NCBI GenBank assembly: GCA_947458455.1
Contig: CANGYJ010000001.1
Location: 1 to 64,000 of the forward strand
Reading direction: 5' to 3'
Length of the DNA: 64,000 nucleotides
Origin: Verrucomicrobiaceae bacterium
Lineage (GTDB): Bacteria > Verrucomicrobiota > Verrucomicrobiia > Verrucomicrobiales > Verrucomicrobiaceae
How positions within the stretch are numbered: the stretch's first letter is position 1; each line of letters begins with the position of its first letter. Position numbers and translations under genes: made by a program. The notes below the pieces were generated by a model that was not told the DNA's origin, ran no database searches, and saw only the letters and a program-made list of their open reading frames with translations. This document shows, one piece after another, positions 2,189 to 54,389 of the stretch.

Positions 2189-5100
2189 TCACTTTCCAGC
2201 GCCGAGTTCCTTGTAGTAGCGCTTCACGAGGTCGCGGAACTCGGCGGGCACGGGATCGCGGTCCACGGGAGCCAGGTTTTTGCCACTGTCCTTCTTGGAG
2301 AGTTCCTCCGCCACGCGGTCACGTAGCTCGATGAGCGGGGCGGTGATACGCTGGTTCAAAAAGGACACCTGCGGGGCTTCGTTGCTGCGTTTGAGGTTCA
2401 CGCGCAGCTCGCGAGCGCGGTCGAGGATCTTCGCGGCGTCGTTTCGCAGCTCGGGATTGTTGAGAAGCTCTTCGACATTGCGGAGGCGGTCGCTCCAGCG
2501 CTCGTAGCCATCGCCGGTGAAGACGTTTGGATCGGGCTGCTCTTTGGAGTCGTCGAAGAAGAGGGAATCCGGCAGGGCACCGCCGGTGATTTGAGGGCGG
2601 CTGCGGTCGTTGTCGGAGTCGCGGTCGGTGGTGGGGCCGTTGGGGGTGTTGTTTGGAGTGGAGCGCGGACGCCCTCGTCCGCTTTGGCTGGGATCGGACG
2701 GATCGGACCGATCTGACGGATCGGTTGTGTTGGTGGCGGTTTGGGTCTGCCCCTCACCCCGGCCCTCTCCCCGTTGAGTGCCGGGCTGTTTTCCATCTCC
2801 TTCGCGGGGAGAGGGAGAGTCTTTGGCTTCGCCTTGGGGCTGACCTTGGCCCTCGGTGGGTTTGGGGGTGTTTTCGGCGGTTTGAGGCTGCCCCTCACCA
2901 CGGCCCTCTCCCCGTTGCTGACTGGGCTGCTGTCCTTCTCCAGGGCGGGGAGAGGGAGAGTCTTTGGCTTCGACCTGGGGCTGGCCTTGGCCATCTCCGG
3001 GTTCTTGGCCGTTTTGGGCCATTTGAGGTTTCGGGCCTTCGCCTTTGGGCAGGCCTTGTTCGCTGGGTTTTTGGCCTTCGCCGGGTTTGGGGGAGGCTTT
3101 GGCTTCGCCGGGCTTTTCGGATGGTTTGGGGGATTCTTGACCCTCTTGACCGGATTGACTGGCTGCCTGCTCCTCCGCTTCCTTGATGAGCTTATCGAGT
3201 TCGTTCTTCGCCACGCGGAGGGCTTCGCTTTCGCTGCCGAGGATGCTTTCGGCGGCTTTTTCGACGCCTTTTTGGAGTTCGTCGATGGCGTTGGCGGCTT
3301 TGCGTTCGGCGTCCTTGGCTTCGGCGGCGCTGCCGTAGCGGAGTTGATCGCGGGCTTCTTGGAGATTTTCTTCGAGGCCGCTGGTCTGGGCTTTGCGGAC
3401 GGCGTCGTAGAGGTTCTTGTGGAGGAGTGGCTCGCTCTGCTCGGCCTGCTCGCTGAGCTGGCGCATGTTGTTGAGGAGCTTTTCGACGTTTTCCTGCTGC
3501 TCGGTCATCTGGCGGGCCTGGCTTTGATTTTGAAGGCTTTGAGCGAGATCGCTTTCGGCGGGCTTTTGGTTTTCGAGGTTCTCGCTGATCTTCTTTTGAG
3601 CCTCGGCGGCTTGCTGCGCCTGCTGGCGGAGCTGCTTCATCTCCTCGGCGAATTTCTTGCTGGTCTTCTGGCGGAAGTCTTCCTGCATCTTTTCCAGCTC
3701 GCGTTGGGCGCGGGTGGCAGAGTTCGTGGCATCGGTGAGCTGCTCGTTCTTGAGTTGATCGACGGCATCGCTGACCTGCTCGCGGGTCTTTTCGAGCTGC
3801 TCCTTGGCTTCGGCCATCTGCTGGGCGTTCTCGGGTTTCTCCATGCGGTCGTTGAGATCATCGAGATCACGCAGGAACTGCTCCTGCTCGGCCTGGAGGC
3901 GTTTAAGCTGATTTTCGAGTTCCTGCTTCTCGGATTCGCTCTTGGCCTGGGCGAGCTGGTTTTGTAGTTCCTTCATCTTCTCCGCCAGCGCCTCCTGTCG
4001 GCGGGCGAGCTCTTTGAGGCGGTTCAAGACTTGCAGGTTTTCCTGCTGCTCGGCGGTCTGCTCTTCGGTGGCAGCTTTTTCCTCCTCGTAACGCTGCTCC
4101 TTCTGCTTCAGCTCAAGGTCCATGATCTGGTTCTTGTTCGCTTCCTGCGGCGCTCCGGCCATGGGCGGGCTGTTTTGACGCATGACCTGATGCTCGCGAC
4201 TCTGCGCCCGGTGCAGCCATTCGAGGGCGCTCTGCTCAAAGGTGAGCGCTTGATTCAAAGGCGAGCGCTTCTTTTCTTCCGCCGCTTGATTCAGCGGGTC
4301 GAGCGCGTCCTTCATGCTCTTCCAAGCCTCGGTGAGATACTTCTTCACCTCGGCGTCCTCGACTTCTTCCATGGCCTCCTTCGTCTGCTCCATGGCGATG
4401 CCCTGGCTCTGATGCACGACACCGGCATCAGGCGCGAGGCTTTCCATGGGGCGACCGCCGTTGGCATCGCGGATGAGCTTCCAAGTGGCGTTCACGACCT
4501 GCTTTTGCAGTTCGATGAGCTTCTGGGCTTTGGGTTTGGGCTGGCCTGGTTCGGGAGGTGGAGCCTCGGCCTCGCGGAAGATGTCCTCAAAGTGGCGCAC
4601 CTCGGCGAAGAACATGTCGCTCATGTTGCGGCGCACCTCGCCCTTGGGTCCGCTGTCCTCCGCCCAGACGTAGTAGCTGACGAGTTGGCGTGGTTGGGCA
4701 CCTTCTTTTTCGAGCAGCAACTCGGCACGAACATCCTGCTTCTTCCGCGGTTCCGTGGGTACATGGGTGAAAGCGACCTCCTTCTTGTTGCCGTTGAGGC
4801 TGAAGACCGCGCCGGATTTCACGACGCTGAGATCATCGGAGATTTTAGCTTCGACGGGAAGCTCTTGCAGGCTCGACACCTGGATGTCGCGCTTCGGAAA
4901 CACGACTTCGATCTTCGCGAGCTGATTGCTCTGCACGGTGACAGTGAACCAAGGCGGATTTTTGTTCCCGCGATCGGCCTCATCGACGAGGTGCAGGCGA
5001 TACTTTTGCGAGGTGGTGGCGGTGAGGACGGCCTCAAGCAGCGTGGGATCCTTGGCGGAAGGCGTGAGCGGGATGACGGACTGGTCCTCGCCGAAGAGCT

Positions 5101-6142
5101 CGGCGGCGGTGAGGTGCGGCTCGAACGGGGAGGTGCGGGCAGGAGTGCCCGCATCACTGCCGGAGAGGAGCGGTTTGTTCACTTGGATCTTCCAGGCGAT
5201 CTTCGAGCCTTCGAGGGCGGTGACCTTCTGGGTGTTCTTGGTCTCCTTCGCGGGCAGCTTGGTGTAGTCCGGCGGAGTGACGATGACATCGCTGCGAACG
5301 AGGGCGGGAAAGTCGAAGACGGTCAGCGTGTGCGGCACGGACTTTTCTCCGGCGAACTCGACGAGGTAGCGTGTGTCGCGGTCCGCCTCCGCGATCATGC
5401 CGCCGAAGACCTGGCCATCGACGGTGAGACGCATGGGCTGGCGTTCACGCTCCGTGCCATCGAGATCGGCGGTGACGAAAGTGGCATCGGCTGGGACGGG
5501 GCCTGCGAAACGGGCTTCGATGATGACGCGGGAGTTTCGTTCGACTTCGGCATCGCCGGGGGTGAGGGTGACGGTGAAGCTCGTTGAGGTCGGGGAGGGA
5601 ACCGCAGATTGCTGATTGGTGATTTTTGATTTTTGAAGGGATGAATGGATGCGCAGGGCGATGTCGGTGGCGAGGAAGGCGAGCACGGCGATCCAGGCTG
5701 CGGCGAGGGCGCGGCGGTAAGGTTTGTCGGCGACGGTGACGGGCCAGTTTTGCGTGGCGGAGCGCGCGAGGGCGTGATCGATGAGGCGCTCGTGGAGGTA
5801 ACCGGCGGGTTCTTCGGCCTGCGGCTCGTGCTCGAGGGCGGTGAGGAGCAGCGAATCGAGTGAGGGATGCTTTTGCTCGATGAGCCGGGCGATCTCGCGA
5901 TCACTCCAGATATTCCGGCGGCCTTTGAGGTAAGCGATGAGTGCCAGGAGGATGAGGCCGAGCATGGACCAGCGGTCGAGCTGCTTCGGTAGTTTAAAAC
6001 CCTGCCAGGTGGCGAGTAGGAAGCTGCCGCGAACGACGAGGCCGAGGAGAAAAACCACGGCCATGTGCCGGAGAAGCCGCGCCTTACGAAAGGCCTCACG
6101 GACTTCAGCGATGCGGGCGTCGAGGATGGTGCGTGCGATCAT
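2189..6142 (-). CDS. Giant DUF4175-like membrane-anchored coiled-coil protein
   Basis: The protein has 1317 residues. Three hydrophobic helices lie near the N-terminus (about 27-45, 58-75 and 147-165), followed by Ig-like beta regions to about residue 520. Then comes a long Gln/Glu/Lys-rich coiled coil (about 550-1010), a Gly/Pro/Gln/Glu low-complexity linker (about 1020-1180) and a conserved-looking C-terminal helical domain. The architecture matches DUF4175 proteins, which often occur near MoxR-DUF58-BatA genes; such a set lies at 50-54 kb here. The low-complexity linker is largely made of palindromic repeats inserted in frame, and another such insert lies at residues 328-338. The long coiled coil suggests an elongated periplasmic structure. 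Function unknown; family assignment is by architecture. Confidence 0.75.
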   Translation of the reverse strand: MIARTILDARIAEVREAFRKARLLRHMAVVFLLGLVVRGSFLLATWQGFKLPKQLDRWSMLGLILLALIAYLKGRRNIWSDREIARLIEQKHPSLDSLLLTALEHEPQAEEPAGYLHERLIDHALARSATQNWPVTVADKPYRRALAAAWIAVLAFLATDIALRIHSSLQKSKITNQQSAVPSPTSTSFTVTLTPGDAEVERNSRVIIEARFAGPVPADATFVTADLDGTERERQPMRLTVDGQVFGGMIAEADRDTRYLVEFAGEKSVPHTLTVFDFPALVRSDVIVTPPDYTKLPAKETKNTQKVTALEGSKIAWKIQVNKPLLSGSDAGTPARTSPFEPHLTAAELFGEDQSVIPLTPSAKDPTLLEAVLTATTSQKYRLHLVDEADRGNKNPPWFTVTVQSNQLAKIEVVFPKRDIQVSSLQELPVEAKISDDLSVVKSGAVFSLNGNKKEVAFTHVPTEPRKKQDVRAELLLEKEGAQPRQLVSYYVWAEDSGPKGEVRRNMSDMFFAEVRHFEDIFREAEAPPPEPGQPKPKAQKLIELQKQVVNATWKLIRDANGGRPMESLAPDAGVVHQSQGIAMEQTKEAMEEVEDAEVKKYLTEAWKSMKDALDPLNQAAEEKKRSPLNQALTFEQSALEWLHRAQSREHQVMRQNSPPMAGAPQEANKNQIMDLELKQKEQRYEEEKAATEEQTAEQQENLQVLNRLKELARRQEALAEKMKELQNQLAQAKSESEKQELENQLKRLQAEQEQFLRDLDDLNDRMEKPENAQQMAEAKEQLEKTREQVSDAVDQLKNEQLTDATNSATRAQRELEKMQEDFRQKTSKKFAEEMKQLRQQAQQAAEAQKKISENLENQKPAESDLAQSLQNQSQARQMTEQQENVEKLLNNMRQLSEQAEQSEPLLHKNLYDAVRKAQTSGLEENLQEARDQLRYGSAAEAKDAERKAANAIDELQKGVEKAAESILGSESEALRVAKNELDKLIKEAEEQAASQSGQEGQESPKPSEKPGEAKASPKPGEGQKPSEQGLPKGEGPKPQMAQNGQEPGDGQGQPQVEAKDSPSPRPGEGQQPSQQRGEGRGEGQPQTAENTPKPTEGQGQPQGEAKDSPSPREGDGKQPGTQRGEGRGEGQTQTATNTTDPSDRSDPSDPSQSGRGRPRSTPNNTPNGPTTDRDSDNDRSRPQITGGALPDSLFFDDSKEQPDPNVFTGDGYERWSDRLRNVEELLNNPELRNDAAKILDRARELRVNLKRSNEAPQVSFLNQRITAPLIELRDRVAEELSKKDSGKNLAPVDRDPVPAEFRDLVKRYYKELGAGK
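2661..2686. repeat. REP-like palindrome GCGGAC-N6-GTCCGC inside a CDS
   Basis: Six-base arms GCGGAC (2665-2670) and GTCCGC (2677-2682) flank a six-base loop. The element lies in frame in the DUF4175-like gene (residues about 1152-1161). A second copy, with the same GGAGC lead-in and a different loop, is in the BatA gene at 53116-53140. Confidence 0.6.
2701..2713. repeat. GATCGG palindrome with tandem GATCGGA copies
   Basis: GATCGGACCGATC is a perfect 13-base palindrome. Together with partial copies on both sides (about 2690-2725) it encodes the Asp-Pro-Ser-rich part of the DUF4175-like linker. It looks like a short repetitive element tolerated in a disordered region. Confidence 0.5.
2749..2825. 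repeat. REP-like palindromic element, copy A, in frame inside the DUF4175-like CDS
   Basis: Ten-base arms CCCTCTCCCC (2763-2772) and GGGGAGAGGG (2806-2815) flank a 33-base spacer, preceded by GCCCCTCACC and followed by AGAGTCTTTGG. The element is about 77 bases long and is read through by the gene as residues about 1105-1131. Copy B lies 141 bases further along with the same borders. Confidence 0.75.
2889..2966. repeat. REP-like palindromic element, copy B, in frame inside the DUF4175-like CDS
   Basis: The same arms as copy A occur at 2904-2913 and 2947-2956, again bounded by GCCCCTCACC and AGAGTCTTTGG. Copies A and B differ mainly in the loop, which is typical for spreading palindromic repeats. 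It encodes residues about 1059-1085 of the DUF4175-like protein. Confidence 0.75.
5129..5159 (-). repeat. 31-bp palindrome-bearing insert, copy 1
   Basis: The core is TGCGGGCA-N4-TGCCCGCA (5134-5153). On the coding strand it encodes SDAGTPARTS (residues about 328-338 of the DUF4175-like protein). An identical 31-base stretch in the same reading frame lies in the BatA gene at 53759-53789. Confidence 0.75.
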
Positions 6143-52201: not shown

Positions 52202-52368
52202 TCCTACTCGTCCTCCTACTCGAACTCGTCCTCGATTCTGCCACGCCGCCTCACCTCAAATCGACCAAACCACCAGATCGCCCCGCCTTACTCTTCTTCA
52301 CTCGCTAACCTCACATCCTATCGTGCCCAAATGATCGAGGACGAGTTCGAGTAGGAGGATGAGGACGA
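52202..52368. repeat. Inverted-repeat element between the DUF58 and BatA genes
   Basis: Arms of 35 bases (52202-52236 and 52334-52368) are reverse complements except for a single position. They consist of alternating CTCGTCC/CTACTCG units unlike the arms of the moxR-DUF58 gap. The element is about 167 bases long and fills the 181-base gap. Confidence 0.78.
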
Positions 52369-52382
52369 ACCCAAGCATCCCC

Positions 52383-54389
52383 ATGAACTGGCTCTTCCCC
52401 CTCTACCTCGCCGGTGCCGCTGCGATCATCGCGCCGATCCTGCTGCACCTGCGTCGTCGTCCGCCGCAGGATCGCGTGGAGTTCAGCTCGCTGCTCTTCC
52501 TTGATGCGCAGACGCCCGTGCCCGTCAGCAAACGTCGCCTCGAAAACTGGCTGCTGCTTCTGCTGCGTTGCCTCGCGCTCATCCTACTCGCGCTCATGTT
52601 CTCGCGGCCCTTCGTTCAAAGCGAGTCCACCGCCCCTGCCTCGCCCAACAGCGCCACGCTCATCCTGCTCGACCGCAGCGCGTCCATGCGCCGCGCTGAT
52701 TTGTGGAAGCAAGCCGTCGCCGAGGCCGAGAAGCAGCTCAAGGCCGCCAAACTCACCGACCGCATCGCTCTGGCCGTTTTCGACCGCGAACTCACACCAC
52801 TGTGGAGCTTTGACGAAGATCGCCACACACCCGCGAACCGCCTCAATGCCATCCAAACACGTCTCGCGTCCCTAACGCCTACTTGGAACGCCACACAGCT
52901 CGACCGCACTCTCATCGCTTCCGTGCCGAGTTTTGACTCCAGCACCACCTCGCTCAAAAAACGCATCCACCTCATCTCCGATCTTCAAGAAGGCACCAAG
53001 CTCGACGCCCTTCGCACCATCGCCTGGCCTGCCGAACTCACCCTCAGCGTCCACCGCCTCGATACCGCCACCAATGACAACCTCTCCATCGCCCTCGCCG
53101 CCCGCGAGCAAGAGGGGAGCGCGGACACTCTTGTCCGCCTCCGCTTGAGCAACACTCGCGACTCCGCCCTTCGCGATTTCACCCTCGCCTGGCAGGGCGC
53201 ACCCAAATCCGACGCCATTACCGCGCAGATCCCACCCGGAGCCTCCCGTATCCTCACCGCGCCGCCGAATTCCACCAACGCCACCACGCTCACCCTCACG
53301 GGCGACACGCACGACTTCGACAACCGCATCTTCATCGCCCCGCCGCAGCCGCGCAGCGTGCGCATCCACTTCCTCGGCAAAGACGCCACGCGAGATGAAG
53401 CTTCATCGCCTCTTTACTACCTCGCCCGTGCTCTCCAGCCCACTGCCACACTCGCGCCCGTTCTCACCGCCGACGAAAAACTTCCCACTCAGCCCACCGA
53501 CATCCTCTTCATCGTCGGCAATGCTCCCGCCGAGGGCCTGCGCGACTACCTCGAACGCGGCGGCTTCCTCGTCACCGTACCCAGCGACGCCACCTTGCTC
53601 AAATCGCTGCTTCAAACCGATCTCGCCGTCACGCCTGACACCAGCGACGACTATCGCATGCTCGGCGAAGTCCAAACCGAGCACCCTTTACTCAAACCCT
53701 TCGCCGACCCCAAACTCCGCGACTTCACCAAACTCCGCTTCTGGAAGCATCGCATCATCAGTGATGCGGGCACTCCTGCCCGCACCTCCGGCCTCGAAAC
53801 GCTCGCCACCTTCGACAACGGCCATCCCGCCATCCTGAGCGCTCGCATCGGCCAAGGCACGCTCATCGTCCTCGCCTCCGGCTGGCATCCAGCGGATAGC
53901 CAACTCGCGCTGAGCACGAAATTCATCCCCCTCCTCTACGGCTGGCTCGCTGCGGCGGGCTTCAGCCACGATCCCGCGGCTACGCTGCTCGTTGGCGATG
54001 CGTTGCCGCTCGATGCCGCCCAAGTACACACCATCACCGATCCCGAAAACAAGACGCACCGCCTCAAACCCGGCGAAACCTTCACCAGCAGCCAAATCGG
54101 TCTCCACAAGGTCCAAAGCGCCGCGCACAGCCAAATCTTCGCCGTCAACCTTTCGCCGGAGGAAGGTCGCATCTTCGCGCTCGAGCCGTCAAAGCTCGCG
54201 GAATATGGATTGAAGCTCTCTTCGGCCTCCGAGCCTCAAAACGAATCGGCCACCACGGATCAGCGCCTCACGGCCTCCGATACCGAGCAGAGCCAGCACC
54301 TCTGGTGGTGGTTTTTGATGGGCCTCCTGGCGGTGCTCCTGCTCGAAACCGCACTCGCCGGGCGCACGAGATCGGCGCTGGCGTCTTGA
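52383..54389 (+). CDS. BatA/VWA domain membrane protein
   Basis: The protein has 668 residues from the ATG at 52383. BatA_N (MNWLFPLYLAGAAAIIAPILLHLRRRPP) is followed by a second helix (about 55-73), a VWA domain with metal site D97-R-S-A-S (LLDRSASMRR), a beta-rich central part and a final helix (WWWFLMGLLAVLLLETAL). The VWA part would sit outside the membrane. Residues about 459-469 (SDAGTPARTS) come from a repeat insert shared with the DUF4175-like gene, and residues 245-253 from another palindrome. Confidence 0.9.
   Translation: MNWLFPLYLAGAAAIIAPILLHLRRRPPQDRVEFSSLLFLDAQTPVPVSKRRLENWLLLLLRCLALILLALMFSRPFVQSESTAPASPNSATLILLDRSASMRRADLWKQAVAEAEKQLKAAKLTDRIALAVFDRELTPLWSFDEDRHTPANRLNAIQTRLASLTPTWNATQLDRTLIASVPSFDSSTTSLKKRIHLISDLQEGTKLDALRTIAWPAELTLSVHRLDTATNDNLSIALAAREQEGSADTLVRLRLSNTRDSALRDFTLAWQGAPKSDAITAQIPPGASRILTAPPNSTNATTLTLTGDTHDFDNRIFIAPPQPRSVRIHFLGKDATRDEASSPLYYLARALQPTATLAPVLTADEKLPTQPTDILFIVGNAPAEGLRDYLERGGFLVTVPSDATLLKSLLQTDLAVTPDTSDDYRMLGEVQTEHPLLKPFADPKLRDFTKLRFWKHRIISDAGTPARTSGLETLATFDNGHPAILSARIGQGTLIVLASGWHPADSQLALSTKFIPLLYGWLAAAGFSHDPAATLLVGDALPLDAAQVHTITDPENKTHRLKPGETFTSSQIGLHKVQSAAHSQIFAVNLSPEEGRIFALEPSKLAEYGLKLSSASEPQNESATTDQRLTASDTEQSQHLWWWFLMGLLAVLLLETALAGRTRSALAS
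53116..53140. repeat. REP-like palindrome GCGGAC-N6-GTCCGC in the BatA gene
   Basis: The arms lie at 53121-53126 and 53133-53138, preceded by GGAGC as in the copy at 2661-2686. It is in frame and reads GSADTLVR in the BatA protein. Relative to the coding strand it is in the opposite orientation to the other copy. Confidence 0.6.
53759..53789 (+). repeat. 31-bp palindrome-bearing insert, copy 2
   Basis: The core TGCGGGCA-N4-TGCCCGCA lies at 53765-53784. All 31 bases are identical to the copy at 5129-5159 in the DUF4175-like gene, in the same orientation and reading frame relative to the coding strand (SDAGTPARTS in both proteins). Confidence 0.75.

Follow-up and report, generated by a model that had tools for sequence, protein, structure and literature searches.

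The closest described counterparts of the repeats analyzed here are the palindromic elements of Rickettsia. These elements, 105–146 bp long, are reported to be dispersed and to lie in frame within unrelated conserved proteins, where they are tolerated (PMC2229807; PMC3733652), and the first of these reports cites a title on palindromic elements in proteins of Wolbachia (PMC2229807). Nearer in phylum are the intragenic REPs that PMC3733652 describes for several genomes, the GTAG cases being given there as most numerous in the verrucomicrobium Opitutus terrae. The GTAG and CGTC REPs of that report have stems of 6–13 bp, and most of its GTAG loops are very short, the longest one named being 27. 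As for RAYTs, PMC2817692 states that no homologues were found outside gammaproteobacteria.

Here we analyze two palindromic hairpins that lie in frame within one gene of a 64,000-nucleotide stretch of a Verrucomicrobiaceae genome (the window). They belong to a repeat family, family A, which is distinct from the GTAG and CGTC REPs and is of the same kind as known protein-coding palindromes; no earlier description of it was recognized in the open literature among the matches listed, as judged by title and start of abstract. A preliminary description of the window had likened the hairpins to the Rickettsia elements, while stressing that they occur in a different phylum. The likeness is apt, and the host is indeed verrucomicrobial, but the phenomenon is not new to the phylum, given the intragenic REPs of Opitutus terrae (PMC3733652). 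Going by the named records nearest to the protein that carries the hairpins, we judge the host to be Prosthecobacter-like.

Two hairpins in a DUF4175-like gene

The host gene, taken from the ORF list, occupies positions 2189–6142 on the minus strand and encodes a protein of 1317 aa. Its sole Pfam match, DUF4175 (PF13779), reaches 22.7 bits and stays below the cut-off of 27.3, and we therefore call the protein DUF4175-like; a search of NCBIfam gave no match. The C-terminal 403 aa have a match in 41 of the 56 genomes searched, the own genome included, and near the C-terminus there is a linker rich in Gly, Gln, Pro and Glu. At the very start of the window (positions 1–108), the DNA reads like the C-terminus of what we take, from its letters, to be a transposase.

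Both hairpins are half-elements of family A on the minus strand. Copy 1 (positions 2749–2825, arms at 2763–2773 and 2805–2815) is read as SPSPREGDGKQPGTQRGEGRGEG and copy 2 (positions 2890–2966, arms at 2904–2914 and 2946–2956) as SPSPRPGEGQQPSQQRGEGRGEG. The copies are identical at 65 of 77 bases and spaced 141 bases apart, and in each of them perfect 11-bp arms, CCCTCTCCCCG and CGGGGAGAGGG, enclose a loop of 31 nt. The preliminary description, which had spoken of two copies of about 77 bases with matching arms, 141 bases apart and read through, was thus accurate. The hairpin pattern CTCTCCCCN{10,40}GGGGAGAG is found twice in the window and in none of 100 shuffled versions. Moreover, when the window was searched with an nhmmer profile made from 73 half-elements of the own genome and its relatives, with the window and its orthologues excluded, the two copies were the only matches above the inclusion threshold in the 64 kb (E-values of 4.8e-10 for copy 1 and 6.9e-8 for copy 2). 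It follows that both have the conserved ends and arms of family A around a variable core. Each consists of one hairpin, and the complete two-hairpin element is absent from the DUF4175-like gene.

Predicted RNA folding is weak for copy 1 (positions 2749–2826; −34.6 kcal/mol, z-score of −1.67) and no better than that of shuffled sequences for copy 2 (z-score of −0.04). Next to the left end stands CCCCGGCC in copy 1 and CACGGCC in copy 2, and among the matches listed, stretches of the CCCCGGCC type also appear in relatives, for example in G028, G012 and G015. The exact 18-mer CCTCACCCCGGCCCTCTC occurs in the own genome only at copy 1, with 20 further sites at one or two mismatches and none in the control.

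Family A in the genome and its relatives

Across the own genome (5,352,110 bases in 28 contigs), the hairpin pattern is found 46 times versus 0 in the reversed control. Grouped by position, by hand, these hairpins form 31 loci, 15 of which hold two hairpins. The palindromes in the DUF4175-like gene are therefore in-frame members of a genome-wide repeat family, and the possibility, raised beforehand, that no further copies exist elsewhere in the genome does not apply, as copies abound. The end motif CCCTCACCN{3,7}CCTCTCCCC gives a similar picture, with 50 sites in the own genome and 0 in the control. It is present in 27 of the 56 genomes searched (own included) and in none of the other 29; the next-highest count, 47 sites, belongs to the relative G015.

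Twenty fuller elements were examined end to end, nine of them 148–153 bp and seven 203–225 bp long. In its usual form, an element opens with CCCCTCACC-TAA-CCTCTCCCCGC, continues through a loop of variable sequence and about 30 bases to GCGGGGAGAGG, and then has a spacer and the second hairpin before it closes with GGTGAGGGG. By eye, the ends of these 20 elements show no target-site duplication. The cores diverge widely across the own genome. We considered whether the variable core had been captured from the host linker, and dropped the idea on finding a similar core in an unrelated gene of G015. At one locus of a relative (L139, G028:C48:417600-419100), three near-identical half-elements lie within about 1 kb, which suggests recent local multiplication. 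Some elements, at L078, L138 and L015, have a different stretch that resembles a hairpin at one end (GCTAGCGAAGCGCCGCGAAGCGAAAGG or the complementary sequence) and look as though a second repeat had inserted into them.

Family A shares with the Rickettsia and Wolbachia elements that it consists of dispersed palindromes in frame in conserved proteins, a likeness which for the Rickettsia elements is one of description. It differs from the Rickettsia elements in being a hairpin pair with long variable loops in a verrucomicrobial host with a 5.35-Mb genome, and in that one copy was apparently duplicated in tandem together with the host linker. With the intragenic GTAG and CGTC REPs it has in common the occurrence of hairpins, single or in inverted pairs, that are read through, and it shares its phylum with Opitutus terrae, the richest of the GTAG cases. 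In contrast to those REPs, it has no terminal GTAG or CGTC but ends in CCCCTCACC and GGTGAGGGG, and while its 11-bp stem is within their range, its loop of about 30 nt is outside. As an inverted pair, element A is also BIME-like, and another palindrome of the host gene, palindrome C, flanks Y1_Tnp genes in the manner of RAYT-associated REPs. Element A is unlike those REPs, as the loci fetched around 12 Y1_Tnp hits (2.7–3.4 kb) are free of A hairpins; L062 has isolated octamers and L063 a single 9-mer resembling an element end, but these do not make up a hairpin. With 0 of 12 such loci carrying an A hairpin, RAYT as the mobiliser of element A is not supported.

Element A inside other genes

In the own genome, complete A elements lie in frame in a P-type ATPase (PF00122, PF00702) and in an MGH1-like glycoside hydrolase (PF22422). 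The ATPase site could be viewed in 16 of 19 fetched homologues, and all 16 are without the insert; the insert-free ATPase of G016 is 85% and 91% identical to the query in two matched segments. The hydrolase query has matches in 8 of 34 genomes (own included), the match in G011 being to the element alone. In two of the six other genomes, G001 and G021 (about 80–84% identical), the site was viewed, and both lack the insert. In addition, the matches in G013 and G002 are split, their halves lying 12 and 9 bases apart versus more than 50 residues in the query. The site patterns missed the ATPase homologues L117, L119 and L127 and the hydrolase homologues L095–L098.

A third gene carries a complete A element in frame in two relatives, G015 and G011, whose genes are 72% identical over the queried stretch. 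The element is absent at the 19 sites viewed among 23 loci (L157–L179, own genome included), although the more distant of these loci may be paralogues. The first site pattern for this gene was blank at 18 of 26 loci, and the figures given here come from a wider one, with L180 set aside. Thus the mark of the Rickettsia elements, a palindrome in frame where homologues have no insert, is found in the ATPase, the MGH1-like gene and the third gene. Judged by sequence comparison, these three document insertion into proteins better than the DUF4175-like gene does, and they point to family A as a mobile repeat. The linkers of several unrelated proteins of the genus (those at L157, L158 and L162 and the DUF4175-like ones) repeatedly contain runs of Ser-Asp codons, such as SDKSD, SDESDESDWSD and SDQSDWSD, close to sites where elements have landed as well.

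Open frames of at least 150 aa read through 11 of the 31 A loci of the own genome. An intragenic position is supported for three of the 31, namely the DUF4175-like gene (C1), the ATPase and the hydrolase (C4:223837, C17:26358). Pfam gave no match for the frames at C9:80634, C7:239976 and C14:66009, and three more frames, at C4:59216, C6:197793 and C9:78296, are 151–178 aa long. At C13:98174 and C9:165635 the element precedes the matched Pfam domains and may lie upstream of the true start. A twelfth read-through case is C4:69800, where the element stands about 14 codons into an open frame of 470 aa.

Origin of the two copies

The preliminary description took the two hairpins for two inserted copies. 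The similarity, however, extends through the flanks of the elements. Copy 1 and copy 2 each lie within a unit of 141 bp or 47 codons (positions 2718–2858 and 2859–2999, minus strand), and the two units form a direct repeat of 80% identity in which the flanks match at 22 of 31 positions on the left and 26 of 33 on the right, all in a gap-free alignment. When 33-mers of the linker are paired in frame (13119 pairs, with the duplication's own pairs among them), 0.24% of the pairs match as well as the right flanks do. This favors one insertion followed by tandem duplication.

Orthologues of the gene were inspected at 44 loci (L016–L059). By pattern, the A hairpin is confined to the own gene (L016), L020 and L058. 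The near relative L058 has a single copy with the same neighboring residues, GEAKDSPSPRPGEGKQPGDQRGEGRGEGQPQTA, and L020 has a single copy at the matching place; the two window copies have similar cores, and the cores of L058 and L020 are like them. To the eye, L018 and L026 contain apparently worn copies. In a tree of 24 orthologues, these five fall within one supported clade of nine rows (100/99), which also includes L017, L021, L024 and L049, all without the A element. The contig of L049, a MAG, is labelled Akkermansia muciniphila, but its gene is of the Prosthecobacter type and is placed by the tree among members of that genus; the MAG is probably mislabelled. Excluded from the tree were ORFs without two anchor motifs (including L033, L037, L044, L045 and L055) and ten identical rows. 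None of the loci left out has an A or B hairpin by pattern, and L055 has palindrome C.

These observations are best accounted for by one old insertion that was later duplicated together with its flanks and became worn or was lost in other species, a course of events that we regard as quite probable. Since L017 belongs to the own clade and lacks the element, a minimum of one loss, or else multiple gains, must be assumed, and several separate gains of A in the linker are possible. Insertion and loss look alike in this gene because the linker is of low complexity and turns over fast, and none of the orthologues offers a clean empty site.

Had the element entered the linker twice independently, one feature of the copies would be well explained: their arms differ at 1 position in 44, compared with 16 of 64 in the flanks and 11 of 33 in the cores, as if the copies were fresh arrivals from one family. 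Double insertions are also reported for genes of Opitutus terrae and Rickettsia conorii (PMC3733652). Nevertheless, this scenario seems decidedly unlikely in view of the gap-free match through both flanks, of cores that are alike in both copies and in L058 and L020 whereas cores elsewhere in the genome vary widely, and of L058 itself, which is close to a one-copy linker with flanks matching both sides of the 141-bp unit. It could also be argued that nothing was ever inserted and that low-complexity codon repeats drifted into a palindrome. Similar residues (PGEGKQPGE, GRGEGQPQTA) do occur in orthologues without palindromes, and here a counterargument anticipated in the preliminary description, that the same residues might be encoded without palindromic DNA, is partly borne out: L049, L021 and L025 show PGEGKQPGE or GRGEGQ-like residues and no palindrome. 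Such residues may be the remains of an element that has worn down, or they may stem from the repeat of the linker itself. Drift alone is nonetheless highly improbable, as about 44 of the bases beyond the core agree with the dispersed family, its CCCCTCACCCCGGCCC and GGGAGAG borders among them, with a profile E-value of 4.8e-10, and as the hairpin is absent by pattern from the other 21 rows of the tree.

If a single insertion with subsequent duplication is accepted, the following sequence of events may be proposed. A one-hairpin half-copy of a non-autonomous repeat would have entered an already disordered linker in an ancestor shared by some species of the genus. The repeat is open in that frame and encodes hydrophilic Ser, Pro, Arg, Gly, Glu and Gln residues like the linker's own, so that the insert could have been translated, tolerated and inherited. 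Some species would have kept it, whereas in others it would have been worn down or lost. In the lineage of the window, the tandem-repeat dynamics of the linker would then have copied the 141-bp unit, element and flanks together, leaving two copies. Full-length copies of the repeat would also have entered, in frame, at least two other conserved genes of this genome and, in two relatives, a third.

Contribution of the palindromes to the linker

The linker, measured between ELDKLI and the LFF motif, is 200 aa long in the own protein. With 154 nt in the two A copies, about 24 nt in the GCGGAC palindrome and 33 nt in the GATCGG stretch, these repeats amount to about 70 of the 200 aa, or about a third, and do not make up most of the linker, as had been claimed. 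Nor did the further claim hold that mobile palindromes had built a new disordered region. Across the 24 rows of the tree, own and carrier sequences counted, the linker ranges from 152 to 290 aa with a median of 246.5 aa. In 21 of these rows there is no A hairpin by pattern, and the composition is alike throughout, rich in Gln, Gly, Pro, Glu and Lys. As hairpin-free orthologues have the same kind of linker, mostly a longer one, the sequences indicate that the A elements did not build it. The view of the palindromes as the bulk or origin of the linker is ruled out by their share of its length together with these hairpin-free linkers. Within the own clade of four, on the other hand, the linkers without an intact hairpin are shorter (175 aa in L017 and 182 aa in L018, compared with 200 aa in the own protein and 239 aa in L058), and thus the elements may have lengthened the linker locally.

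Other repeats in the host gene

Palindrome B, of the GCGGAC family (GCGGACGAGGGCGTCCGC, positions 2665–2682, minus strand), is read in frame as SGRGRPRS and has a fold z-score of −2.11. It represents a family separate from A, with copies dispersed in the own genome: 5 exact ones and 11 sites at up to two mismatches, against 1 in the control. In L020, L021 and L024 it recurs in frame without a single change, and in L022 and L026 it differs at one base; L020 has an additional, degenerate second copy. The neighboring GATCGG stretch (positions 2692–2724, minus strand) is a direct repeat of 9-nt Ser-Asp-Pro/Arg codon units. Its 15-mer has 15 genome sites at up to one mismatch (control 1), the single exact copy being the one in the DUF4175-like gene, and L017, L018 and L024 have SDKSDPSD-like runs in their linkers. 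We rejected it as a palindromic element, since it is a simple codon repeat.

A further palindrome that the preliminary description did not include, palindrome C (AGTGATGCGGGCACTCCTGCCCGCAC, positions 5133–5158, minus strand), lies outside the linker and is read in frame as SDAGTPAR (fold z-score of −2.49). Its 18-base core has 31 exact copies in the own genome and 73 at up to two mismatches, with 2 in the control. Copies at C7:60508, 60552, 61227 and 61271 surround a Y1_Tnp gene at C7:60637-60864, and copies at C16:77481 and 78143 surround another at C16:77844-78080. Because its copies flank these two Y1_Tnp genes, as those of RAYT-associated REPs are described to do (PMC2817692), palindrome C is a RAYT-associated REP. 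Among 13 orthologues viewed, it is exact in L046, L047 and L055 and missing from the other 10. Some of the latter have similar residues at the site (GEAGAPAR, SDEGAPVR), and hence the palindrome may be older in this gene and worn. The window contains a second copy (positions 53760–53785, plus strand) in frame inside the ORF at 52359–54389, and the REP reads SDAGTPART in both genes; the shared frame may reflect chance or a preference.

Possible maintenance of the hairpins as DNA

The hairpins might be more than tolerated: they could be kept for a function of the DNA or RNA in the gene, such as mRNA stability or translation pausing, or by gene conversion. Between the window copies, 1 of 44 arm positions has changed, compared with 16 of 64 in the flanks (p = 0.001) and 11 of 33 in the core, and at third codon positions the figures are 1 of 15 in the arms versus 8 of 21 in the flanks (p = 0.05). 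At four-fold sites, copy 2 differs from L020 at 1 of 17 within the element, compared with 47 of 145 beyond it (p = 0.024). All these p values are nominal and post hoc, the tests having been picked after the data were seen. The letter-identical palindrome B in four species, the own one included, points in the same direction, yet it is one base off in two others. The comparison of copy 2 with L058 reveals no shortage of four-fold change in the element (4 of 18 versus 32 of 145), protein constraint on RGEGRGEG could explain part of the effect, L018 and L026 keep the gene without a hairpin, and the folding of A is weak in both copies. The slower change of the arms is therefore suggestive only, and maintenance of the hairpin beyond toleration is an unlikely explanation. 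Three unrelated palindrome families (A, B and a RAYT-type REP) share this one gene, and we are equally doubtful about the broader proposition that their DNA, beyond the residues it encodes, is maintained there through gene conversion with copies elsewhere in the genome or as a selected mRNA hairpin, so that arms remain identical after duplication and across species as flanks and cores drift. If true, it would make coding genes maintained homes of palindromic repeats, beyond accidental victims.

Implications

For annotation, the findings serve as a warning that peptides such as SPSPR...RGEGRGEG and SDAGTPAR can be repeat DNA. The 46 hairpins, the insert shared by G015 and G011 and the insert-free ATPase of G016 together provide a system for studying what becomes of a protein after a palindrome has landed in it. 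Protein-coding palindromes were described earlier in reduced intracellular genomes, whereas the host genome of family A measures 5.35 Mb. Family A thus joins the short list of protein-coding repeats, with insertions in conserved genes that can be set against element-free homologues.
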